DNA of 64,000 nucleotides from the NCBI RefSeq assembly GCF_036227565.1, contig NZ_CP109460.1:6820001-6884000 (forward strand), written 5' to 3'. Shown one piece after another: positions 13,519 to 35,119 of this stretch. Origin of the DNA: Streptomyces sp. NBC_01454. GTDB lineage: Bacteria; Actinomycetota; Actinomycetes; Streptomycetales; Streptomycetaceae. The notes beneath the pieces are model-generated. The model did not search any database and was not told the origin of the DNA. It saw nothing but the letters and a program-made list of their open reading frames with translations. A program made the position numbers and the translations under genes. Numbering within the stretch: the stretch's first letter is position 1; the number at the start of each line of letters is the position of its first letter.

Positions 13519-13539
13519 ATGGGCGAGGGGTACGCATGA
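13519..13539 (+). CDS. Possible 6-codon upstream ORF (MGEGYA)
   Basis: ATG at 13519 has GGAAGGAG 9 nt upstream. It reads six codons and stops in an ATGA overlap with the start of the BluB-CobT gene at 13536. It has a better ribosome site than the main ORF, so it may feed ribosomes into it by termination-reinitiation. The alternative is that this GGAAGGAG simply serves 13536 at long spacing. Confidence 0.35.
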   Translation: MGEGYA

Positions 13540-16500
13540 CCGACACCGGCCAGGTCCCGGGCGAGGGTCAGCCGGAGAACGCAGGCGGACATCCCGGGCA
13601 GCCGCAGCCGTCGGCCGCTCCCTCCCCTGCCGATGCCGGTCCGGCTCCGTTGCCGGGCATGGCGCCTCCTCCGGGCGAGTACCCCTATCCCGACCAGACC
13701 GACGGCGCCGCCGAGGACGACGATCTGCTGCTGATGCCGGGTGCCCAGGGCGCCTGGAGCGAGCAGCCGGCGCCTCAGTCGCTCCCGCAGCCCCAGGAGA
13801 CCCACCAGGGCCCGGACCAGCAGCTTCCGCAGGCCGCCCCGTACGACGCGGCCGCCCAGGGGGCCACCGGCTTCGAGCCGGTGTCCGCCCCGATCGGTGA
13901 CCATGAGAGCGGCGGCCGCGATTCCGGTTCCGTCGACCTCGGCGCCGTCCGCATTCCGCAGCCCGCGGCACCCCGTCAGCAGGACCGGGCCCGCGCGGCC
14001 GCACCCGCCACGCCCCCGCGCCGTCCGCTGCACATGGGCCCGCCGGTGCCCGACGCGACCGGCGGCGTGGTCCGTTCGCTGGCCGACCGCGGTCCGGCGG
14101 AAGCGCCCGCGCAGGCCGTCGCGCCGCAGGTGGAACCGCCCACCGGCGGCCCGGAGTACTTCGACGCCCCGGCCGGGGCCCCCGAGGCCATGGCGGGTCC
14201 GCCGGCCGGCGCACCGCACCCCGGGCAGCAGTTCGGGGACGCGGCGGCGCAGGGCTTCGCGGCCCCGTCGTACGGCGGGCAGCCCTACGAGGGCCAGTGG
14301 TCCGCCGAGCAGACCTACGGCGCCGCGGGCCAGGGCCCGTTGCCCGGCCCGCAGCTCGGCGAGATCCCGTCGCAGGTCACGCCGTGGGGCGAGCCCCCGG
14401 CCCAGCCCGTGCCGGAGGCGGCTGCAGAAACGGTCTCCCCCGAGGCGCCGCTCGCGCCCGAGGCCGTGCAGGCCGTACCGCAGGACGCACCCCTGCCCAC
14501 CGGACAGCCGCAGCCGCTGCCGGCCGAGACCGCCGCGCAGCCCGCCGCCGCGCCCGCCGTCGCGGACGCCCCCGCTGCCGCGCCGGGCGAGCGGGCCGAA
14601 GCCCCCGCGCAGCCGCAGGACGTGGCCGACGTGACGCCGGAGGCGCTCCCGGATGCGGCCGCGCCGGGGCAGGACGATACGGCCGGGGCGGCGGATGCCG
14701 TGGCGGACGCGACGGGACCCGACGCCGCCGTGGCGCAGGCCCCCGCCGCGGAGGCCGTTACGGCAGAGGCCGTGACGCCGGACGTCGTTGTGCCGGACGC
14801 CGCCGCTCAGGACGCGCCCGCCGCCCAGGACGCCGCTGCGGTGGTCCAGCAGCCCGAGGCCGTGGCCCCCGCTCCCGCCGTGCCGGTGACGGACGAGGCC
14901 GCGGTGCCGGTGGAGCCCGTGCAGCCCGTGCAGCCCGTCGGGCCCGACGCGGAGCGGCCGGCCGCCGAGGCGCCGGCCGCCCCTGCCGACGAGGCCCCGG
15001 CGCCGCTGCCCGCACAGCCCGCCGCGGACGTCCCGGCCGGTGACGTGCCCGAGGCCGCCCCCGCGCCCGAGGCCATCGACCAGCCGCAGCCCGCTGAACC
15101 GGCCATCGCCGAACCGGCCCCCGCCGTCGACGCGCCCCAGCCGGAGCCCGGCGCCGTGCCCCAGGCGGAGTCCGCCCCGGCTGAGTCCGCTCCGGCCGAG
15201 TCCGCTCCGGCCGATCCCCCCGTGGCCGAGCCCGTCTCCGCCCCGGAACCGGCCGCCGAGCCCCGGGCTGCCGCTGCCCTTCCCGTAGCCGATCCCGCAC
15301 CCGAGGAGGGCGCCTCCGAGGAGGTCGCTTCCCCGGAAGGGGCCGTCATAGAGCCGCCCGAGGCGCAGCAGCCGGCCGCCGACGAGCCGCGGCCCGGTGT
15401 CCCCGCCGACGCCGCAGGGCAGCAGACCGCCGAGGCCGCCGCGCTGCGGGCCCCGGATGCCGGCACCGACCAGCAGCCCGTGACGGACGCCGCCGGGAGC
15501 CCCGCCGAGCCCGCCACCTCCCCGGCCGGTGCCGCCCCGGGCACCGACCCCACCGCCCCGGCCACGGACCCCGCGACCGCCGGCCCTGCCGAGACGGAAG
15601 AGGCCACCGTGACGGACGAGATCCCGGGGGCTGACGAGCCCACCGCAACCGACGAGGCGCCGGAGACCCGCGGCCCCGCCGAGCCCGCCGCCCCGCCCGC
15701 CGAAGACCCGCCCGTCGTCGTCCACATCCCGGCCCAGGCGTCCGGTGAACAGCCCGCGACCGCCGTGCCCGCGCCCGACGACGTCCCCGGCGCACCCCTC
15801 GACGAGACGCCCCGGCAGCAGGACGCCGCCGCGCTCGTCCAGCTCGGCGAGGACCAAGAGGACGACCGGCCGCAGCCGTCCGGTGACCGGGCGCCCGCGG
15901 CGGCGCCCGACGGCGACGGTGCCGACACCCCCGCCGCGTCCCCGGCCGCCGGGTACGACGACTCCGAGCGCGCCGCCGTCCACCGCGTGATGCGCGAACG
16001 CCGTGACATCCGCAACGGCTTCCGCAGCGACCCGATCCCCAACGACGTGCTGCTGCGCGTCCTGGAGGCGGCCCACACCGCCCCCAGCGTCGGCCACTCC
16101 CAGCCCTGGGACTTCGTCGTCATCCGCTCGGCCGAGACCCGCGAGAAGATGCACCAGCTCGCCATGCAGCAGCGCGAGGCGTACGCCAAGTCGCTGCCCA
16201 AGGCGCGCGCCAAGCAGTTCCGCGAGCTCAAGATCGAGGCGATCCTGGAGACGCCGGTCAACATCGTCGTCACCGCCGACTCCACCCGCGGCGGCCGGCA
16301 CACCCTCGGCCGGCACACCCAGCCGCAGATGGCCCCGTACTCCTCCGCGCTCGCCGTCGAGAACCTCTGGCTCGCGGCCCGCGCCGAGGGCCTGGGCGTC
16401 GGCTGGGTCAGCTTCTTCGACGAGCGGGAGATGGTCCGCGAACTGGACCTGCCCGACCACCTGGAGGTCGTCGCCTATCTGTGCGTCGGCTATGTCGACG

Positions 16501-17672
16501 AGTTCCCGGAAGAGCCGGAGCTGCTGCAGGCCGGCTGGTCCAAGCGCCGTCCGCTGTCGTGGGTGGTCCACGAGGAGACGTACGGGCGCCGCGCGCTGCC
16601 CGGCGAGAGCCCGCACGACCTCCTCCAGGAGACCCTGCAGGGCATCCGCCCGCTGGACGCCAAGGCGCTCGGCGAGGCCTGGGAGCGGCAGAAGCGGATG
16701 ACCAAGCCCGCCGGGGCGCTGGGCATGCTGGAGATCATCTCCGCGCAGCTGTGCGGACTGTCCCGCAAGTGCCCGCCGCCGATCCCGGAGCCGGCCGCCG
16801 TCGCGATCTTCGCCGGTGACCACGGTGTGCACGCCCAGGGCGTGACCCCCTGGCCCCAGGAGGTCACCGGCCAGATGGTCGCCAACTTCCTGGGCGGCGG
16901 CGCGGTCTGCAACGCCTTCGCCCACCAGGTCGGCGCCGAGGTCTGTGTCGTGGACGTCGGCGTGGCGAGCGAACTCCCCGCCACCCCCGGTCTGCTGCCG
17001 CGCAAGGTCCGCGCCGGCACCGCCGACTTCACGGCGGGCCCGGCGATGACCCAGGAGGACGTGCTCAAGGCGATCGAGGTCGGTATCGACACCGCCCGCG
17101 ATCTCGTCGCGGCCGGCAACAAGGCACTGCTGACCGGCGAGATGGGCATCGCCAACACCACCACCTCCGCCGCGCTGATCGCCGTCTACACCGGCGTCGA
17201 CCCGGTCGAGGTCACCGGCCGCGGCACCGGCATCAACGACGAGACCCACGCCCGCAAGGTCGAGGTGGTCCGCCGCGCCCTGGAGCTGCACCGGCCCGAC
17301 CCGGCCGACCCCATCGGTGTCCTCGCCGCGATCGGCGGCCTGGAGCATGCCGCCCTCGTCGGGCTGATCCTCGGCGGCGCCTCGCTGCGCACCCCGGTGA
17401 TCCTCGACGGGGTGAGCGCCGGCGCCGCGGCACTGGTGGCCCGCGCCATCGCCCCCGAGGCGCTGGCCGCCTGCATCGCCGGCCACCGCAGCGCCGAGCC
17501 GGGCCATGTCGCGGCCCTGAACAAGCTGGGCCTGCGCCCGCTGGTCGACCTCGATCTGCGCCTCGGCGAGGGCACCGGCGCCCTGCTGGCGCTCCCCGTG
17601 GTGCAGAGCGCCGCCCGCGCCATGCACGAGGTCGCGACCTTCGACTCCGCCGGAGTCACCGAGAAGATCTGA
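13536..17672 (+). CDS. cobT: BluB-CobT fusion: DMB synthase / nicotinate-nucleotide-DMB phosphoribosyltransferase with long disordered head
   Basis: Makes and activates the lower ligand of B12. Residues ~1-805 are low-complexity, rich in Pro, Ala, Glu, Asp and Gln, with short repeats (ESAPAESAPA, VQPVQPV) and no fold visible. Residues ~806-1025 are a BluB-type flavin destructase that forms 5,6-dimethylbenzimidazole (MRERRDIRNGFRSDPI, APSVGHSQPWDFV, EGLGVGWVSFF). Residues ~1030-1378 are CobT (FAGDHGVHAQGVTPWPQEVT, GTGINDETHARK, and the catalytic Glu in LRLGEGTGALLA). Fusing the two enzymes couples synthesis and use of DMB. A 15-bp hairpin terminator follows. The start could be ATG 13536 or via the mini-ORF. 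Confidence 0.9.
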   Translation: MTDTGQVPGEGQPENAGGHPGQPQPSAAPSPADAGPAPLPGMAPPPGEYPYPDQTDGAAEDDDLLLMPGAQGAWSEQPAPQSLPQPQETHQGPDQQLPQAAPYDAAAQGATGFEPVSAPIGDHESGGRDSGSVDLGAVRIPQPAAPRQQDRARAAAPATPPRRPLHMGPPVPDATGGVVRSLADRGPAEAPAQAVAPQVEPPTGGPEYFDAPAGAPEAMAGPPAGAPHPGQQFGDAAAQGFAAPSYGGQPYEGQWSAEQTYGAAGQGPLPGPQLGEIPSQVTPWGEPPAQPVPEAAAETVSPEAPLAPEAVQAVPQDAPLPTGQPQPLPAETAAQPAAAPAVADAPAAAPGERAEAPAQPQDVADVTPEALPDAAAPGQDDTAGAADAVADATGPDAAVAQAPAAEAVTAEAVTPDVVVPDAAAQDAPAAQDAAAVVQQPEAVAPAPAVPVTDEAAVPVEPVQPVQPVGPDAERPAAEAPAAPADEAPAPLPAQPAADVPAGDVPEAAPAPEAIDQPQPAEPAIAEPAPAVDAPQPEPGAVPQAESAPAESAPAESAPADPPVAEPVSAPEPAAEPRAAAALPVADPAPEEGASEEVASPEGAVIEPPEAQQPAADEPRPGVPADAAGQQTAEAAALRAPDAGTDQQPVTDAAGSPAEPATSPAGAAPGTDPTAPATDPATAGPAETEEATVTDEIPGADEPTATDEAPETRGPAEPAAPPAEDPPVVVHIPAQASGEQPATAVPAPDDVPGAPLDETPRQQDAAALVQLGEDQEDDRPQPSGDRAPAAAPDGDGADTPAASPAAGYDDSERAAVHRVMRERRDIRNGFRSDPIPNDVLLRVLEAAHTAPSVGHSQPWDFVVIRSAETREKMHQLAMQQREAYAKSLPKARAKQFRELKIEAILETPVNIVVTADSTRGGRHTLGRHTQPQMAPYSSALAVENLWLAARAEGLGVGWVSFFDEREMVRELDLPDHLEVVAYLCVGYVDEFPEEPELLQAGWSKRRPLSWVVHEETYGRRALPGESPHDLLQETLQGIRPLDAKALGEAWERQKRMTKPAGALGMLEIISAQLCGLSRKCPPPIPEPAAVAIFAGDHGVHAQGVTPWPQEVTGQMVANFLGGGAVCNAFAHQVGAEVCVVDVGVASELPATPGLLPRKVRAGTADFTAGPAMTQEDVLKAIEVGIDTARDLVAAGNKALLTGEMGIANTTTSAALIAVYTGVDPVEVTGRGTGINDETHARKVEVVRRALELHRPDPADPIGVLAAIGGLEHAALVGLILGGASLRTPVILDGVSAGAAALVARAIAPEALAACIAGHRSAEPGHVAALNKLGLRPLVDLDLRLGEGTGALLALPVVQSAARAMHEVATFDSAGVTEKI

Positions 17673-17840: not shown

Positions 17841-19079
17841 ATGGCTGAGCATGCCGCCGAACACGCCGCCTACCCCGTCGGACTGCGGCTGTCCGGCCGC
17901 CGGGTGGTCGTCCTCGGGGCCGGGCAGGTCGCCCAGCGCCGGCTGCCTTCGCTTCTCGCCGCGGGCGCCGATGTCCTGCTGATCTCCCCGTCCGCCACCC
18001 CGTCCGTCGAGGCGATGGCGGACGCCGGCGAGCTCCGCTGGGAGCGCCGCCGCTACCAGGACGGCGACCTCGCCGACGCCTGGTACGCGCTGATCTCCAC
18101 CGACGACCCCCGGGCCAACGCCGCCGCGTCCCAGGAGGCCGAGGACCGCCGGGTGTGGTGCGTACGCTCCGACGACGCCGAGGCGGCCACCGCCTGGACC
18201 CCGGCCACCGGCCGCAGCGAGGGCGTCACGGTCGCCGTGCTCACCGGCCGCGACCCGCGCCGCTCCGCCGCCGTACGCGACGCCATCGTCGAGGGCCTGC
18301 GGGAGGGCAGCATCGCCGCCCCGCACCACCGCCGCCCGCACACCCCGGGCGTGGCCCTGGTCGGCGGCGGCCCCGGCGACCCCGATCTGATCACCGTCCG
18401 CGGCCGCCGGCTGCTCGCCGAGGCGGACGTGGTGATCGCCGACCGGCTCGGCCCCCGCGATCTGCTCGCCGAACTCCCCCCGCATGTCGAGGTCATCGAC
18501 GCCGCCAAGATCCCTTACGGCCGTTTCATGGCACAGGAGGCGATCAACCAGGCGCTGATCGAGCACGCCAAGGCGGGCAAGGCCGTGGTCCGGCTCAAGG
18601 GCGGCGACCCGTTCGTCTTCGGCCGCGGCATGGAAGAGGCCCAGGCACTCGCCGACGCCGGTATCCCCTGCACGGTCGTCCCCGGGATCTCCAGCACCAT
18701 CTCGGTGCCCGGGGCCGCCGGCATCCCCGTCACCCACCGGGGCGTCGCCCACGAGTTCACCGTCGTCAGCGGCCATGTCGCCCCCGACGACGAGCGTTCC
18801 CTCGTGGACTGGCCCTCGCTCGCCAGTCTGCGCGGCACCCTCGTCGTCCTGATGGGCGTCGAGAACAGCGGCGCCATCGCCGCCAAGCTCATCGAGCACG
18901 GCCGCGCCGGCGACACCCCGGCCGCCGTCATCCAGGAGGGGACCACCGCGGCCCAGCGCCGCGTCGACGCCACCCTCGCCACGCTCGGCGAGACCGTACG
19001 GGCCGAGGGCGTGCGCCCCCCGGCGGTCATCGTGATCGGTGAGGTCGTCACCGTCGCCCCCGCTCCTGCCCCCAGGTGA
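17841..19079 (+). CDS. cobA: Uroporphyrinogen-III C-methyltransferase with precorrin-2 dehydrogenase domain (CysG-like)
   Basis: Entry enzyme to corrin and siroheme synthesis (412 aa). The N-terminal ~155 residues are a NAD-binding SirC/CysG-A type dehydrogenase (LSGRRVVVLGAGQVAQRRLP, then RDPRRSAAVRDAIVEGL). The C-terminal ~240 residues are the SAM-dependent uroporphyrinogen-III methylase: VGGGPGDPDLITVRGRRLL, VRLKGGDPFVFGRG and VVPGISSTISVPGAAGIPVTHRG. All methylase signatures are intact. AAGGAG before the ATG supports the start. It lies between the CobT fusion and the TrmH gene, completing a local trio of cobalamin genes. Confidence 0.92.
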   Translation: MAEHAAEHAAYPVGLRLSGRRVVVLGAGQVAQRRLPSLLAAGADVLLISPSATPSVEAMADAGELRWERRRYQDGDLADAWYALISTDDPRANAAASQEAEDRRVWCVRSDDAEAATAWTPATGRSEGVTVAVLTGRDPRRSAAVRDAIVEGLREGSIAAPHHRRPHTPGVALVGGGPGDPDLITVRGRRLLAEADVVIADRLGPRDLLAELPPHVEVIDAAKIPYGRFMAQEAINQALIEHAKAGKAVVRLKGGDPFVFGRGMEEAQALADAGIPCTVVPGISSTISVPGAAGIPVTHRGVAHEFTVVSGHVAPDDERSLVDWPSLASLRGTLVVLMGVENSGAIAAKLIEHGRAGDTPAAVIQEGTTAAQRRVDATLATLGETVRAEGVRPPAVIVIGEVVTVAPAPAPR

Positions 19080-19134: not shown

Positions 19135-20025
19135 GTGGCAGAAATCATCACCGTCGACGATCCGGACGACCCCCGGCTGGCCGACTACACCGGCCTGACC
19201 GACGTCGAACTGCGGCGCCGCCGCGAGCCGGCCGAAGGGCTCTTCATCGCCGAGGGCGAGAAGGTCATCCGGCGAGCCCGGCACGCCGGCTACCGGATGC
19301 GCTCCATGCTGCTGTCGGCGAAGTGGGTCGATGTCATGCGCGATGTCATCGACGAGGTCCCGGCACCGGTCTACGCCGTCAGCCCGGACCTGGCCGAGCG
19401 GGTGACGGGCTATCACGTCCACCGCGGCGCGCTGGCCTCCATGCAGCGCAAGCCGCTGCCGGACGCCACCGAACTCCTCGCCGGGGCCCGGCGCATCGTC
19501 GTCAAGGAAGCGGTCGACGACCACACCGACATCGGCGCGATGTTGCCTTTGGGTCTACAAAAGAGTGCAGGTCAGCGCGTCGCCATCTTCGAGGACATCG
19601 TTGATCATGCGAATCTGGGGGCTGCCTTCCGCAACGCGGCCGCTCTGGGCTTGGACGCAGTCTTCCTCACGCCACGCTGCGCTGACCCTCTCTACCGGCG
19701 GTCCGTGAAGGTGTCGATGGGCGCTGTCTTCCACGTCCCCTGGACCCGGCTGACTTCTTGGCCGAAGGACATCGAGCTCTTCCGGCAGCACGGCTTCGTC
19801 ACGGCTGCCTTGTGCCTCGGAGAGAAGTCGATCACGATGGACGAACTGGCCGCCCGCCGGTACGAGAAGCTGGCCCTGATGCTCGGCACCGAAGGCGACG
19901 GGCTGTCGGTCGACGCCCTGCGCGCGGCAGATGAATGGGTCCGGATCCCGATGGCCGCAGGAGTGGACTCCCTCAACGTCGCCGCAGCCTCCGCCGTGGC
20001 CTTCTACGCGACGAGGCTCCGATAA
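19135..20025 (+). CDS. Chimeric TrmH/SpoU-family RNA 2'-O-methyltransferase
   Basis: A 296-residue SAM-dependent RNA ribose methyltransferase. Residues 1-~135 contain the substrate-binding domain and reach the start of the SPOUT domain (RIVVKEAVDDHTDIGAM). Then comes an odd linker LPLGLQKSAGQ, and the SPOUT domain starts again: RVAIFEDIVDHANLGAAFR, then PRCADPLYRRSVKVSMGAVF, LGTEGDGLS and IPMAAGVDSLNVAAASAVAFY. The catalytic Arg of the second copy and the knot residues are present, so it may be active. From about 19541 base composition becomes visibly less GC-rich. The remaining native C-terminus of this gene is found at 23236-23585. Start: GTG in the usual position of the family. Confidence 0.85.
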   Translation: MAEIITVDDPDDPRLADYTGLTDVELRRRREPAEGLFIAEGEKVIRRARHAGYRMRSMLLSAKWVDVMRDVIDEVPAPVYAVSPDLAERVTGYHVHRGALASMQRKPLPDATELLAGARRIVVKEAVDDHTDIGAMLPLGLQKSAGQRVAIFEDIVDHANLGAAFRNAAALGLDAVFLTPRCADPLYRRSVKVSMGAVFHVPWTRLTSWPKDIELFRQHGFVTAALCLGEKSITMDELAARRYEKLALMLGTEGDGLSVDALRAADEWVRIPMAAGVDSLNVAAASAVAFYATRLR

Positions 20026-20077
20026 GAACTCGCGCGACCAGGTGCAGGCGTGCCCGTGGCAGCAAGGCAGGCACAGG

Positions 20078-20277
20078 TCAGCCTGTCCGGGCGAGGGCGC
20101 GCAGGGCGTCGAGGGTCTCCCGTTCGTCTTGCTGGTCCCCGTAATCGCTGAGATTCACCATGACGGTCTTGCTCACGGCATCGACAGAGATGTAGTGCCC
20201 GTACACGCCGAGGGCGGCGCAATCCTTGCCGTGGCCGCCGGGGGTGCCACCACTGTGCGGAGTAGCCCCAGCCGTCG
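20078..20277 (-). pseudogene. C-terminal remnant of a beta-lactamase-fold serine hydrolase, frameshifted
   Basis: Read on the minus strand, DGWGYSAQWWHP is followed, after a shift at a run of five Cs, by GGHGKDCAALGVYGHYIS, VDAVSKTVMVNLSDYG and ETLDALRALARTG. This is the C-terminal pattern of class-C beta-lactamase-like or 6-aminohexanoate-dimer-hydrolase enzymes (GxxGQ-x-VDP then VNLS). Nothing upstream encodes the SxxK or YxN active-site parts, so it is a 5'-truncated, frameshifted fragment. Confidence 0.6.
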
Positions 20278-20309
20278 ACTTTGGGGGGCTGAGGTGGCGA
20301 TGCGCTTGA

Positions 20310-20576
20310 TCCAAGGCCGAACGCGCCCCCGTCCGCACCGAACTCCTCGACGTCCCGGCCAAGTTGACCGAGCATGCCCGCCGCCGTGAGCTCAAGTTCG
20401 ACCCGGCCTGGCCCACGACCCACCGGGCCGTCGCCGCGTGGGGGCGTATCAGCCCCTGCCAGATCCCGGCTGATCGCCGGCCCGCCGCCCCCACTCACCG
20501 GAGGGAGGAGTCCCGCAGCACCCTCGGCCAGTGGAAGCCGACGCCGCACGCGACGACACGCGGCCCACCGACCTGA
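20310..20576 (+). mobile_element. Remnant of an IS1380-type transposase 3' end
   Basis: The frame reads VRTELLDVPAKLTEHARRR followed by ELKFDPAWP, resembling the C-terminal LLxVPAxxxxHARRxxLxLPxxWPW signature of IS1380-like transposases. Only the tail is left, with no catalytic core or inverted repeats. It marks past insertion activity at this junction. Confidence 0.5.
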
Positions 20577-20764
20577 CCAGCAGCGATCACGCCACAGAGC
20601 GAACTGTAGGCAATCGGATACCCCAGCCGAACCCCTCACCTCGGCGCGCGCACGTGAATGACCGAGGCTAGATTGACGAAAGAGGGGAAAACCGGCGGCG
20701 GCGAGTCGGTTTCATGGCTCATCCCGCGGAACCTTTGATAGGCGCCCGAGAGGGGATCTTTGCC

Positions 20765-21460
20765 ATGGCCAAGGTGCTTTTCATCGTGAGCGGAGCCACC
20801 TACTGGGTGTTGAAGGACGGCACGAGGTACGCGACGGGCTACTGGGCCGAGGAGTTCGCGAACCCGTACAAGATCTTGACGGAGGCCGGCCACGAGGTCG
20901 TCGTCGCGACGCCGAACGGCGTGACCCCGAACGTCGACATGATGAGCCTGCGCCCCGAGATGGTCGGCGGAAATGACAGCGCCCTCGAGTTGGAGGCCAT
21001 CATCCGTTCCGCGGAGGTGATGCGTCGGCCGCTGCAACTGTCGGACGTGCGCCTCGAGGACTACGACGCGGTGTACTTGCCGGGCGGTCACGGTCCGATG
21101 GCGGACCTGGCGTGGGACGCCGATGCCGGACGGCTGCTGACGCAGCAGCTGGCCTCGGGCAACCCGCTGTTCATCGTCTGTCACGCCCCTGCCTCGATGC
21201 TGGCCACCAGGATTCACGGCGAGTCGCCGTTCAAAGGCTTCCACGTCACCTGCTTCACCAACGACGAGGAGGAAGGCGTCGGGCTGGCCTCCAGGGCCCC
21301 GTGGCTGCTGGAGACCGATGTGCGGGAGAAGGTCGGGGTCAACTTCAGCCGCGGCCCGATCTGGGAGCCGTACATGGTCGAGGATCGCAACCTGATCACC
21401 GGGCAGAACCCGGCCTCGGCCGCGGTCCTGGGTAACCGGATGCTGGAAATCCTCAAGTGA
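20765..21460 (+). CDS. DJ-1/PfpI (Hsp31-like) class I amidotransferase-fold protein
   Basis: A 231-residue protein of the DJ-1/PfpI superfamily, whose members include glyoxalase-III/deglycase and chaperone-like Hsp31 proteins. The nucleophile elbow is FIVCHAPAS (Cys-His, ~140) after the LPGGHGPM block (~106). The N-terminus has the KVLFIVSGATYWVLKDG strand and the glutamate-bearing TGYWAEEFANPY of the Hsp31 group. AGGGG 9 nt before ATG 20765 is preferred over an ATG 17 codons upstream. First of three co-directional detox-type genes in the island. Confidence 0.82.
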   Translation: MAKVLFIVSGATYWVLKDGTRYATGYWAEEFANPYKILTEAGHEVVVATPNGVTPNVDMMSLRPEMVGGNDSALELEAIIRSAEVMRRPLQLSDVRLEDYDAVYLPGGHGPMADLAWDADAGRLLTQQLASGNPLFIVCHAPASMLATRIHGESPFKGFHVTCFTNDEEEGVGLASRAPWLLETDVREKVGVNFSRGPIWEPYMVEDRNLITGQNPASAAVLGNRMLEILK

Positions 21461-21702
21461 CGCCGTCCCGCGGCGATCCGGCCCAGGCGCGTGCCCGCAC
21501 ACGCGGGCCGTGTCCGTGGGGCCGGCACCCGCTCCGAATCCGCTGATCCCGCACCCACCGCGGCTCCAGGTGCAATCCGCCCGGCAGGTCCGGGAAACGT
21601 TCACCTGTCGGCCGGGCCATGGCCGTGGCCGCTGAGTCCCGGCGGGTGTGCCGGGATGGGTCACCGGCCTGCGGCATGCCGATCAGGCGAAGGAGGCGAG
21701 GG

Positions 21703-22440
21703 GTGAGCGTGAACGACACGACGGGTGCGGACACCCCCCAGAAGGTCGCGATCATCACCGGTGCCAACGGGGGCATCGGCACCGCCATCGTCACCGCCTA
21801 CCGCAGCCTCGGGTACGCCGTCGCGGCCACCAGCCGTTCCATGCGGGAATCCGAGGATCCGCAGGTGCTCGCCCTCAGCGGCGATCTGGTGGAGTCCGGT
21901 GCGGGCGAGCGGATCGTAGGGGCGGCGATGGATCGGTTCGGTCGGATCGACACCGTGGTCAACAGTGCCGGTGTCTACATCGGCAAGCCGTTCACCGACT
22001 ACACGGACAAGGACTTCGACCTGATCGTCGGCGTGAACCTGCGCGGATTCTTCAACGTCTCGCGCAGCGCCATCGGCGCGATGCTCTCCCGCGGTGAAGG
22101 CGGCGGCCACCTGGTGAACATCTCCACTTCCCTGGTCGACCAGCCGGATTCACGGGTACCTTGCGCGCTCGCGTCGCTGACCAAGGGCGGGCTGAACGCG
22201 GTCACCAAGGAGTTGGCGATCGAATTCGCGGGGCACGGCATCCGCGTGAACACCGTCTCGCTCGGAGTCGTCCGTACGCCGATGAACCCGGAGACGACGC
22301 CCGAGCTCGTGGGTCGCCATCCACTCGGGCGGATGCAAGAGGTCGACGACGTCGTCCAGGCCATCGTGTACCTCGAGCAGGCGTCCTTCGTCACCGGCGA
22401 GGTCCTGCATGTGGACGGCGGCCAGAGTGCCGGCCACTGA
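21703..22440 (+). CDS. SDR-family protein lacking the catalytic Tyr
   Basis: A 245-residue Rossmann-fold short-chain dehydrogenase/reductase. The NAD(P) motif TGANGGIG (~18), the NSAG motif VVNSAGVYIG and the Ser strand NISTSLV are present. At the active site the usual YxxxK is replaced: the sequence is CALASLTKGGLNAV, with Lys161 kept but Ala157 where Tyr is expected. It may be an atypical oxidoreductase, or a binding or regulatory protein. AAGGAGG 6 nt before GTG fixes the start. The next gene begins 3 bases after its stop. Confidence 0.85.
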   Translation: MSVNDTTGADTPQKVAIITGANGGIGTAIVTAYRSLGYAVAATSRSMRESEDPQVLALSGDLVESGAGERIVGAAMDRFGRIDTVVNSAGVYIGKPFTDYTDKDFDLIVGVNLRGFFNVSRSAIGAMLSRGEGGGHLVNISTSLVDQPDSRVPCALASLTKGGLNAVTKELAIEFAGHGIRVNTVSLGVVRTPMNPETTPELVGRHPLGRMQEVDDVVQAIVYLEQASFVTGEVLHVDGGQSAGH

Positions 22441-22443
22441 AAG

Positions 22444-22932
22444 ATGGCCATGAATGACACCGCAGACACCGAGTCGGTTCTGCGCGAAGCGCTGAACAGG
22501 TGGAAGGCCGCCTGCAGAAGGGACAAGGCGATGGATCCTGATATCAGGAAGGCCGCACTCGAGGAACACTGGCGGGCATCGGAACGTGGGGACATCGACG
22601 CCGAGCACGCCATCTACGCTGCGGACGCGATCCTCGACTACCCCCAGTCAGGTGAACGATTCCGGGGCCGCGCGACGATTTCAGCGCAACGTGGCGGGCA
22701 TCCTGCCAGTCGGCAATTCACCGTCCACCGGATCGTTGGCAGCGGGGATCTGTGGATGAGCGAGTGTGTCATCACGTACGACGGGGTGCCCACCTACTCC
22801 GTGAGCATGATGGAATTTGCCCACGGGCATGTGGTGCACGAGACGCAGTACTTCGCGGACGCCTTTGGTGCGCCTGAAGGGCGGAAGGCACTCGCGGAGC
22901 CGATGCCGGGAAGGAATATCGCCAGGGCCTGA
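22444..22932 (+). CDS. SnoaL-like (NTF2-fold) small protein
   Basis: A 162-residue single-domain protein. The helical start (ALEEHWRASERGDIDAEHAIYA), the strand YAADAILDYPQSGERFRGRATI and the C-terminal VVHETQYFADAFGAPEGRKALAE pattern are typical of SnoaL-like cone proteins, which act as cyclases, isomerases or small-molecule binders. It starts 3 bases after the SDR stop and so is coupled to it; a shared small-molecule pathway is likely but not identifiable. A second ATG two codons downstream is an alternative start. Confidence 0.78.
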   Translation: MAMNDTADTESVLREALNRWKAACRRDKAMDPDIRKAALEEHWRASERGDIDAEHAIYAADAILDYPQSGERFRGRATISAQRGGHPASRQFTVHRIVGSGDLWMSECVITYDGVPTYSVSMMEFAHGHVVHETQYFADAFGAPEGRKALAEPMPGRNIARA

Positions 22933-23235
22933 CTCAGGGCCGCAGGGCGATTGCACAGTCTGATCGTGTCGGATTGGCCGCCCGAACGGCTCGCTCAGCC
23001 CGTTCACCTGCTCGACGAGCGTCCGACGACTGCACTCCGCCGCCCGTCATGGACACGGCGGGACGCGGCACCGCCCCCGGGCAGACCGCCTCACCGTTCA
23101 CCGTCCGTGCCAGAACAACCACTTGCTCGTCGCCTACCGCGACCTCCTCCACCGCGACCGGCGCGAGGTGGGAGAAGGCCATCCAAAACACGCTGCCACC
23201 ACACGAAGCAACAACACTCCAGGGTGTCGTGACAC
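22933..23235. other. Gene-free stretch at the right end of the island
   Basis: 303 bases without a supportable gene. The sequence drifts back to high GC. A small inverted repeat (GGTGTC/GACACC, 23223-23236) lies at the point where homology to the native methyltransferase resumes, so the right junction is probably close to it. Confidence 0.5.
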
Positions 23236-23585
23236 CACGTCACTCCATGGGCGCGGTGTTCTCCGTGCCCTACGCCCGCCTGGAGAACTGGCCCCGGGAC
23301 CTCGCCGTCGTACGGGAAGCGGGCTTCCGGCTGCTCGCGCTGACCCCGGCCGACAAGGCCACCGCCCTCGACAAGGCCACCGCCCTCGACGAGGCCGCCC
23401 CGCACACGCTGGAGCGCGCCGCCCTGATGCTGGGCGCGGAGGGCGGCGGGCTGAGCACCGGTGCACTGCGCGCCGCCGACGAGTGGGTCCGCATCCCGAT
23501 GGCGCACGGCGTGGACTCGCTCAACGTCGGAGCGGCCGCCGCGGTGGCGTTCCACGCGGTGGCGACGGGCCGCCCGGCGACCTGA
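23236..23585 (+). pseudogene. Severed 3' end of the native trmH/spoU gene
   Basis: The frame reads PRHSMGAVFSVPYARLENW, then REAGFRLLALTP, LMLGAEGGGLS and ADEWVRIPMAHGVDSLNVGAAAAVAFH. This is the C-terminal half of a TrmH/SpoU methyltransferase SPOUT domain, including the trefoil-knot motifs. It lacks the N-terminal domain, the EDVxDHTNxGAxFR block and any ribosome site. It aligns in content with the second half of the gene at 19135 but is of a different subfamily (VPYARL versus VPWTRL). It is best read as what remained when the island entered. It contains a short internal duplication (DKATALDKATALD). Confidence 0.8.
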
Positions 23586-23601: not shown

Positions 23602-24942
23602 TCAGGCCGAGCCGGCCTGCCGGACGTCCGCGCTCCCGGCCGGGACGACCGGCGCGGGCCGCTCCATCCCCCGCCCGCCGGTCGGCCCCTGGCACCCCTG
23701 CGCGGCCGCGATCCCCAGCGCCACCAGCAGCGTCACCACCACGAACACGATGATGCGCTGACGCAGCAGCCGGCGGTCGGGACCGGGCCGGCGCCCGCCC
23801 GAGGCCGTACGCACCGGAGTACGTGAACCGTTTCGCCCCGGGGGACGGGCACCCGGCACACCCCGTGCGGCACGCCCGCCGGTCCGCGGCTTCTTCCCCA
23901 CGGCCGGGGCCGGAGCGGCCGGCCGGGCGACCGCGTCACGGGGCGCCGGAGGACGGGGCGGTTGCGGACGCGGAGTGCTCCCGCCGGTCCGCCGCTCGGT
24001 GCGCTGCCGTGCGTACTCCTCGGCCCGCCGGCCGGTCGGCCGCTCCGCGGGGCGGCGCTCGCCGCGCTCCCAGCCGGCCCCGGCACCCGCCCCGCTCTCC
24101 AGCGGCCCGCCCGACAGCCCGTGCGCCTCACGGGCCGCGATCTCCTTGAGCCGCAGCGACAGCGACAGGGTGCTGGGGCGGTCCGCCGGATCCTTGGCCA
24201 GACACGAGGCCAGCAGCGGCGCCAGGGCGTCCGGCACCCCGGCCAGCTGCGCCTCCTCGTGGACCACGCGGTAGAGCATGACCTCCGAACTTCCCTGTCC
24301 GAAGGGGGAGTCCGCGGTGCAGGCGTAGGCCAGGGTCGCGCCCAGCGCGAAAATGTCCGTCGCCGGGGTCACGGCGGCCCCGCGCACCTGCTCCGGCGCC
24401 AGAAAGCCCGGTGAGCCGACGGCCGTGCCGACGTGCGTCAGCGTGCTGGCGCCGGTCGCCCAGGCGATGCCGAAGTCGATGATCCGCGGGCCCTTGGGCG
24501 ACAGCAGAATGTTCGACGGCTTCAGATCGCGGTGCACCACGCCCGCGTCATGGACCGCCAGCAGCCCCTCGGACAGCGCGGCGCCGACGGAGGCGACCTG
24601 CGCGGGGGACAGCGGCCCCTCCTCGTTGACCTTGTCGTGCAGCGAGGGGCCCGGGACGTACTGCGTGGCGAACCACGGCCGGTCCGCGTCGAGATCGGCG
24701 GCCACCAGCCGCGCCGTACAGCCGCCGCGGATCCGCCGGGCGGCGGAGACCTCGCGCGCGAACCGCGAACGGAACTCCTGATCCTCCGCCAGATCCGGCC
24801 GGATCACCTTGAGCGCCACCCGCTGCCCGCGCTTGTCCGAGCCGAGATAGACCACGCCCATCCCGCCCGCGCCCAGCCGACGGTGCAGCCGGAACGTCCC
24901 GACGACACGCGGGTCCTCGCGTCGGAGCCGCATCATCGCCAT
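23602..24942 (-). CDS. Membrane-anchored Ser/Thr protein kinase (PknB-like)
   Basis: A 446-residue Hanks-type kinase. The Gly-rich loop is GAGGMGVVYLG (~21), the Lys is in VALKVIRP, the catalytic loop is VHRDLKPSNILL (~136), and DFGIAW (~153) and SPGFLAPEQVRG are intact, so it should be active. A Pro/Arg/Gly-rich linker (~280-390) leads to one hydrophobic helix (IIVFVVVTLLVALGI, ~400-418) and a short outside tail of ~30 residues with no PASTA domains. Its start MAMMRLRREDPRVVGTFRL is typical for Streptomyces kinases. It converges on the truncated trmH end. Confidence 0.9.
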   Translation of the reverse strand: MAMMRLRREDPRVVGTFRLHRRLGAGGMGVVYLGSDKRGQRVALKVIRPDLAEDQEFRSRFAREVSAARRIRGGCTARLVAADLDADRPWFATQYVPGPSLHDKVNEEGPLSPAQVASVGAALSEGLLAVHDAGVVHRDLKPSNILLSPKGPRIIDFGIAWATGASTLTHVGTAVGSPGFLAPEQVRGAAVTPATDIFALGATLAYACTADSPFGQGSSEVMLYRVVHEEAQLAGVPDALAPLLASCLAKDPADRPSTLSLSLRLKEIAAREAHGLSGGPLESGAGAGAGWERGERRPAERPTGRRAEEYARQRTERRTGGSTPRPQPPRPPAPRDAVARPAAPAPAVGKKPRTGGRAARGVPGARPPGRNGSRTPVRTASGGRRPGPDRRLLRQRIIVFVVVTLLVALGIAAAQGCQGPTGGRGMERPAPVVPAGSADVRQAGSA

Positions 24943-34300: not shown

Positions 34301-34372
34301 GGGCGATTAGCTCAGTGGGAGAGCGCTTCGTTCACACCGAAGAGGTCACTGGTTCGAACCCAGTATCGCCCA
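34301..34372 (+). tRNA. tRNA-Val (CAC), copy 1
   Basis: A 72-nt cloverleaf. Acceptor GGGCGAT/ATCGCCC, discriminator A, anticodon loop TTCACAC giving CAC (reads GUG), T-loop GGTTCGAACC. TAATGT at 34282-34287 is a possible -10. CCA not encoded. Confidence 0.95.
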
Positions 34373-34380
34373 CCCCGGAC

Positions 34381-35037: not shown

Positions 35038-35109
35038 GGGCGATTAGCTCAGTGGGAGAGCGCTTCGTTCACACCGAAGAGGTCACTGGTTCGAACCCAG
35101 TATCGCCCA
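35038..35109 (+). tRNA. tRNA-Val (CAC), copy 2
   Basis: Identical over its 72 nt to the tRNA at 34301. Acceptor GGGCGAT/ATCGCCC, anticodon CAC. Separate promoter and terminator, so the two copies are independent units flanking the SRPBCC gene. Confidence 0.95.
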
Positions 35110-35119
35110 CCGGGATCAG

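Follow-up and report, generated by a model that had tools for sequence, protein, structure and literature searches.

The interrupted trmH locus

The window analysed here, 64,000 nucleotides of the 9.46-Mb genome of Streptomyces sp. NBC_01454 (G000; contig NZ_CP109460.1, positions 6,820,001 to 6,884,000), carries a TrmH/SpoU-family RNA methyltransferase gene (trmH) in which a foreign catalytic domain follows the native head. The locus (W) is bounded on the left by a conserved cysG-like gene (17841 to 19079, plus strand; tblastn match in 20 of 20 loci) and on the right by a conserved protein kinase gene (23602 to 24942, minus strand; match in 19 of 20 loci). Between these flanks the genomes G294, G064 and G268 have a single uninterrupted trmH, whereas the window has a hybrid trmH, cargo genes and a stranded trmH 3′ end.

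The hybrid gene (19135 to 20025, SpoU_methylase Pfam match) and all of its parts lie on the plus strand. The native head, which includes a relict of the native SPOUT opening (KEAVDDHTDI), extends from 19135 to 19533 and reaches a putative crossover core, GGCGCG (19534 to 19539), common to the host attachment site attB (GGCGCSATCTTCC) and to phage attP (GGGCGC). The core is followed by a linker containing an attP′ half-site (19540 to 19559), in which a 12-nt spacer precedes GGTCTACA with the same spacing as in the attP of Streptomyces phage Kamino. The remainder (19576 to 20025) is a foreign SPOUT catalytic domain with its own stop codon, hereafter the cap, assigned to tail type B from DNA identity and the tail tree. 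As an earlier note on this DNA had described, the 296-residue product contains the SPOUT opening twice (KEAVDDHTDIGAM, LPLGLQKSAGQ-RVAI, then FEDIVDHANLGAAFR), and base composition drops at the same place, the G+C content (GC) falling from 0.70 (19250 to 19549) to 0.63 (19550 to 19849). The SpoU_methylase domain of the hybrid is complete (PF00588, residues 150 to 291, profile positions 4 to 142 of 142). A trmH search of the host genome returned four matches only, namely the hybrid, the stranded piece and two distant relatives (27% and 31% identity).

The headless SPOUT C-terminus proposed downstream has the orientation and the end (23585) given for it, but the first residue that aligns with native trmH is the S of SMGAVFSVPYARL at position 23244, not 23236. 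This stretch (23244 to 23585, plus strand, from SMGAV to the stop, delimited by alignment to native trmH) is missing about 30 codons past the crossover site and contains an in-frame repeat, DKATAL. The match is beyond chance: relative to the native trmH tail of G294, 98 of the 106 aligned codons are either the same or synonymous. The two domains do represent two SPOUT subfamilies, with their roles corrected: the fragment at 23244 is the native type A tail (VVMEAVNDHTNIGAIFRSAAALG..VPYARL), and the domain fused to the window head is the foreign type B (AIFEDIVDHANLGAAFRNAAALG..VPWTRL).

Among the loci compared, the two nearest by flanking genes (G294 and G064) have one uninterrupted type A gene at the corresponding empty site. 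Their cysG genes are 93.6–93.9% identical to that of the window and their tails 70.0–70.6%, and the window head is 93.2% identical in DNA to that of G294 over the first 118 codons. The cap shares 95.0% of its DNA sequence with that of G090, a genome with less close flanks, and 92.7% with that of Streptomyces adelaidensis (L085). A head resembling G294 and G064 joined to a tail resembling G090 therefore supports the proposal that the conserved motif of the native gene was broken and a foreign 3′ end joined to the head in frame. Two further points lay beyond that proposal: the replacement half forms part of a site-specific element of the serine-integrase kind, and such events have happened repeatedly.

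Integrated elements and phages that carry a cap

Both junctions are preserved in four loci: L085, L099 (sp. H27-C3), L037 (sp. ATexAB-D23; one contig with L104) and L164. In the first three the right junction falls at GGCGCSATCTTCCGC, directly preceded by sequence that differs among them, and attR carries the native tail from the core; in L164 it does so with a changed core. L164 is a 6,697-bp IMG/VR contig, one of two loci found in a viral-contig search with the window cap, and holds an integrated element in full, from the head through the cap, cargo and a serine integrase beside attR to an intact native tail. Its cap belongs to a third tail type, C (AIFEGFVDHANLGAAFRSAAALG), present in ten further loci. 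L147 also has an integrase, its attR being deleted; the L147 and L164 integrases are 91% identical to each other and 54–55% identical to those of phages Kamino and Sitrop (55% for L164 and Kamino). In integrated forms the frame across the core reads N-I-G-A-M-L-P-L-G-L-Q. The octamer GGTCTACA occurs with no or one mismatch in 12 of 97 type B and C loci, including the window, and in each of these a core can be recognised 12 nt upstream, though it has drifted in some; of 17 loci with two mismatches, 3 have such a core.

In L147:13162–14598 the serine integrase gene, its start codon seemingly missing, is joined to the last codons of native trmH, and a nearby open reading frame (ORF) presumably encodes an IS30 transposase. 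A regulator-like protein, alike by eye, adjoins the cap in L099:2540–3784 (where it has a helix-turn-helix motif), L147:10611–11846 and L164:878–1855; its occurrence in both B-cap and C-cap elements suggests a single element family. Two other types of element were considered and dropped: a transposon with terminal repeats, since the right ends of L037, L085 and L099 are unlike one another, and a tyrosine-recombinase element, suggested by inverted arms CAACAT/ATGTTG at the left junction, once serine integrases had been found.

A search of 50,697 phage records with the cap gave its best matches in Streptomyces phages Kamino and Sitrop, the latter a Camvirus of the Arquatrovirinae. Sixteen records matched: Kamino, two Sitrop records, 11 human-gut records and two Staphylococcus phages. 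The corresponding plasmid search returned 26 records, none from Streptomyces, the best being 63.6% identical (Microbacterium). In Kamino and Sitrop a headless TrmH SPOUT domain stands in frame with the core GGCGC, the core also present in the window; in these phages a serine integrase gene lies next to the domain in divergent orientation, with attP between the two. Kamino's domain bears the annotation putative TrmH-family methyltransferase and begins 19 bp past the integrase gene on the opposite strand; that of Sitrop is unannotated and overlaps the annotated integrase start. Read from trmH through the core, the Kamino frame gives N-I-G-A-F-S-Q-F-G-L-Q-R-V-A-G-Q-G-R-I-A-V-F-E-D, and its attP′ half resembles that of the window in having GGCGCG, a 12-nt spacer and the same octamer.

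Inverted repeats of 8 bp flank GGCGC at 16 and 12 nt in the attP of 5 of the 10 phages compared (Kamino, Sitrop, phiScoe45, Saftant and phiScoe25), 2–10 of 1000 shuffles being as good. The capless phage phiScoe45 shares the P arm and has an integrase 98.3% identical. In phiScoe45 (L191) and phiScoe56 (L193), both capless with an attP core of the same type, the trmH frame meets a stop directly past the core, so integration there would truncate trmH. Saftant and phiScoe25 are also capless and retain GCAGGTCAG, the start of the cap region in Sitrop, which suggests that they may have lost the cap. According to the 2023 paper on the phiScoe phages, attP was identified for three phiJoe-like phages only and not for the rest (PMC10276819); among the latter are five with 64–83% integrase identity (phiScoe10, 23, 25, 45 and 56). 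Neither TrmH nor an attB appears in the available passages of the Kamino paper (PMC11536984) or, by term search, in the Sitrop paper (PMC8407746), and no attB is named for this integrase group in the accessible portions of the open-licence literature searched.

trmH as the proposed attachment site

We propose, with a probability of about 0.87, that trmH serves as attB for a family of serine-integrase elements, temperate phages probably among them, and that a cap replaces the 3′ half of the host gene on integration. Crossover would occur at GGCGC, in the codons of N-I-G-A, where the SPOUT catalytic domain begins. The element would carry a headless SPOUT cap pointing inward from attP and in frame with the host head, so that integration would give the host gene a new catalytic half and push the native half out to the element's other end, where it would adjoin the integrase gene. 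The model rests on two phages in which the cap adjoins attP and the integrase gene, on one element that is integrated and complete, on the four loci that keep both junctions, and on cap exchange between differently flanked hosts. Judging from cap, frame and core, the Kamino and Sitrop integrases are likely to recombine at trmH. The hybrid TrmH is presumably active, and the benefit would lie in TrmH function being kept in the lysogen. The model suggests how a conserved gene may survive a phage that settles in its middle. It also predicts the attachment sites, attP and attB, of a large group of serine integrases from Streptomyces, which would be useful for integrating vectors.

Several observations weigh against this model. 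The 8-bp attP repeat is missing in the other 5 of the 10 phages, and the inverted P arm, present in two of the four two-junction loci (L164 and L085), is absent or unrecognisable in L099 and L037. The full core is not common to the two L164 junctions, which leaves the crossover dinucleotide unfixed. Among 41 phage records whose integrase is at least 60% identical, only Kamino and the two Sitrop records appeared in the cap search. The window, unlike these phages, is without phage genes and integrase, and their caps are only about 66% identical to its own, so neither phage is its direct source. No Kamino-like integrase was detected at E ≤ 1e-80 in 392 genomes of the genus, in a search that scored few candidates per genome (four each listed) and had no positive control. 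The L147 integrase was matched in 34 of these 392 genomes (E ≤ 1e-40), at most 41% identical, and in six genomes listed with both genes on one contig (G007, G041, G052, G055, G098 and G170) the L147-type integrase lies at least 300 kb from trmH. The phiScoe paper reports no prophages in regrown S. coelicolor cells, so lysogeny of this group is not demonstrated there (PMC10276819). The window island itself gave no integrase match better than E 0.007. Finally, a relative of the kind that the earlier note named as evidence to the contrary does occur: G179 (L039) has a long linker, the kinase gene 101 bp away and no island. We read it as a probable later loss of the island, because L164, L085, L099 and L037 show both junctions with the native tail starting at the crossover.

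The left end of the element in the window agrees with the model, an in-frame cap standing directly past the core (19534 to 20025). The window has no attR with the native tail from the core; its tail begins about 30 codons downstream, at 23244. The cargo comprises a gene fragment resembling an IS1380-family transposase (20329 to 20672, no strand assigned; 82% identical to a Streptomyces plasmid, from whose annotation the name is taken) and three plus-strand genes named from Pfam, for a DJ-1/PfpI-family protein (20765 to 21460), a short-chain dehydrogenase (SDR; 21703 to 22440) and a SnoaL-like protein (22444 to 22932; 92% identical to two Streptomyces plasmids). No structural or replication genes of phages are among them. 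The DJ-1 gene has 89% DNA identity in genomes of another family, and the DJ-1 and SDR genes stand side by side in two of these (G400 and G402), with 84–89% identity. Since integrase and attR are gone, about 30 codons of the native tail are deleted and the cargo is not phage-like, the window copy is a late, decayed remnant whose cargo was replaced or added.

The alternative that survives best, though improbable, is that a single ancient insertion was later carried between strains by homologous recombination in the flanking cysG-trmH and kinase regions, its cargo being exchanged on site, with no recent site-specific integration. Streptomyces exchange chromosomal segments, the well-preserved linkers are homologous, and among the loci compared matches to the three integrases searched were found only in L147 and L164. 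Such a history is difficult to reconcile, however, with three loci whose right junctions coincide although the sequences abutting them differ, with the full-length integrase between cap and native tail in L164, and with two phages that carry the cap beside attP. Nor does it fit the extent of the shared DNA: the window tail is 91.3–92.7% identical to those of L085, L089, L036 and L035, whose cysG, head and kinase genes are 78.7–84.4% identical to those of the window, so that identity falls at the head boundary and does not extend into cysG.

Type B trmH could instead be an old, vertically inherited Streptomyces form and the doubled motif an internal duplication, which we regard as very unlikely. 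Seamless type B genes are indeed common among the loci compared. The tail tree, which rests on few columns, leaves the direction between phage cap and host gene unsettled, the phage rows sitting inside type B on a long outgroup branch that the program flagged as possibly false. Yet types A and B are interspersed among close relatives: the cysG tree (110 loci) shows 14 changes of tail type, of which starred branches force at least 11 for type B. Native A tails are stranded downstream in W, L037, L085, L099 and L164, and shorter pieces of them in L036, L041, L089 and L092. In the best preserved genes, moreover, the two motif copies belong to different types, A for the first and B or C for the second, and the doubled motif is therefore not a duplication. 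Vertical descent is thus contradicted for well-preserved long-linker genes and possible for some seamless ones. A single accident in this genome, the illegitimate insertion of an island that happened to hold a TrmH fragment, would fit the window taken alone, with its missing integrase and partly deleted native tail. Many species share this left junction, however, and in four loci the right junctions coincide in position as well, which makes such an accident hardly credible.

Tail exchange, varied cargo and comparable systems

With the cut that we set at 72% identity, type B tails at least as similar to that of the window occur in 42 of 392 genomes of the genus, the window's own counted; four genomes just under the cut (68–70%) were fetched and all are type A. 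The loci compared were picked by likeness to the window linker and tail, and their A/B proportions are uninformative on prevalence. Trees and counts used 113 loci (87 B, 16 A and 10 C) after dropping 24 loci of genomes fetched twice. On the 112 rows used for linker lengths (L164, with no full head, stands apart, as does one B locus without the linker anchor motif), the linker has 13 residues in all 16 A genes and at least 40 in 26 of the 96 B and C genes. Long-linker genes in the best state of preservation consist, in order, of the native head, the remains of the A motif, a linker akin to LPLGLQKSAGQ and a B or C domain; in other genes these remains are decayed. GC at third codon positions (GC3) is lower in the tail than in the head in 20 of the 26 genes with linkers of at least 40 residues, and linker length correlates with the GC3 deficit (Spearman 0.52, n = 96, uncorrected for relatedness), which fits long linkers being young.

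Outside the window, linkers seem to degrade and become shorter over time until the native head passes straight into the B or C domain. The seamless genes of types B and C may be domesticated caps, or caps may derive from them. That every Streptomyces type B or C trmH, seamless ones included, is a domesticated phage cap whose element was lost and whose attP linker was trimmed off is a tentative extension, to which we give slightly worse than even odds. If true, the attachment site would act as a ratchet by which catalytic domains evolved in phages replaced that of a housekeeping RNA methyltransferase many times within one genus. Headless proteins were also sought: six short ones were inspected among the best 120 of 7999 matches, and all are possibly cut by contig ends. 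Synonymous to non-synonymous codon differences of the B tail from the window number 17:4 (G090), 20:9 (L085) and 24:12 (L035), and those of the head 18:8 (G090); from these counts the B tail looks no less constrained than the head. Half of trmH appears to have been swapped repeatedly across Streptomyces, and parts of the module are also present in two known phages; repeated exchange of the catalytic domain may be the lasting mark of such integration.

Cargo differs among L085, L099 and L037, and the trmH site accepts diverse genes, a type I-E CRISPR-Cas locus included. The latter lies inside the trmH element of L037 (L037:3900–15400), with matches to seven Cas proteins (Cas3e, Cas8e, Cas11e, Cas7e, Cas5e, Cas6e and Cas1e) and two CRISPR arrays with a 61-bp period; compared with phages, the L037 array gave three weak records. 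A 102-aa ORF occupies the usual place of cas2, and the distal array appears to end in a degenerate repeat that directly adjoins the stranded tail of trmH. We scanned 113 cargo ORFs (three from the window), chosen by coding potential and probably including some shadow ORFs. No shared recombinase is among the 25 families listed of the 118 Pfam families matched, which include two rve matches; with PADLOC, 22 of the 25 listed (78 families matched) are Cas families with one member each. The cargo of G090 (L034:5596–12205) looks like polyglutamate capsule synthesis genes; PGA_cap matched one of the 113 ORFs, by look probably L034:5596–6816.

Comparable arrangements are known. Lambdoid phage 21 and the element e14 of Escherichia coli sit as prophages inside the housekeeping gene icd and bring a replacement 3′ end. 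The trmH element likewise lies inside a housekeeping gene and supplies a new 3′ end; in contrast to the tyrosine integrase and near-identical short 3′ end of phage 21 and e14, it involves a serine integrase and a whole diverged catalytic domain, and part of the native motif persists in the protein as a relict. SCCmec elements of staphylococci use serine recombinases that target the SPOUT methyltransferase gene rlmH and have varied cargo, which makes them similar in recombinase, target and cargo; their site is at the extreme 3′ end and leaves rlmH intact, whereas at trmH half of the protein is exchanged. Mobile elements of Streptococcus suis insert in the RNA methyltransferase gene rumA. The terms serine integrase and RNA methyltransferase both occur in a paper on S. 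suis mobile elements (PMC7168690).

Elsewhere in the window, two tRNA-Val (CAC) genes (34301 to 34374 and 35038 to 35111) have the same orientation, with starts 737 bp apart, and possibly bracket a small tRNA-targeting element. To the left of cysG, a 1378-codon ORF (13536 to 17672) has a long, Pro/Ala-rich first half and a second half that we take, from resemblance, to contain nitroreductase and CobT-like parts.

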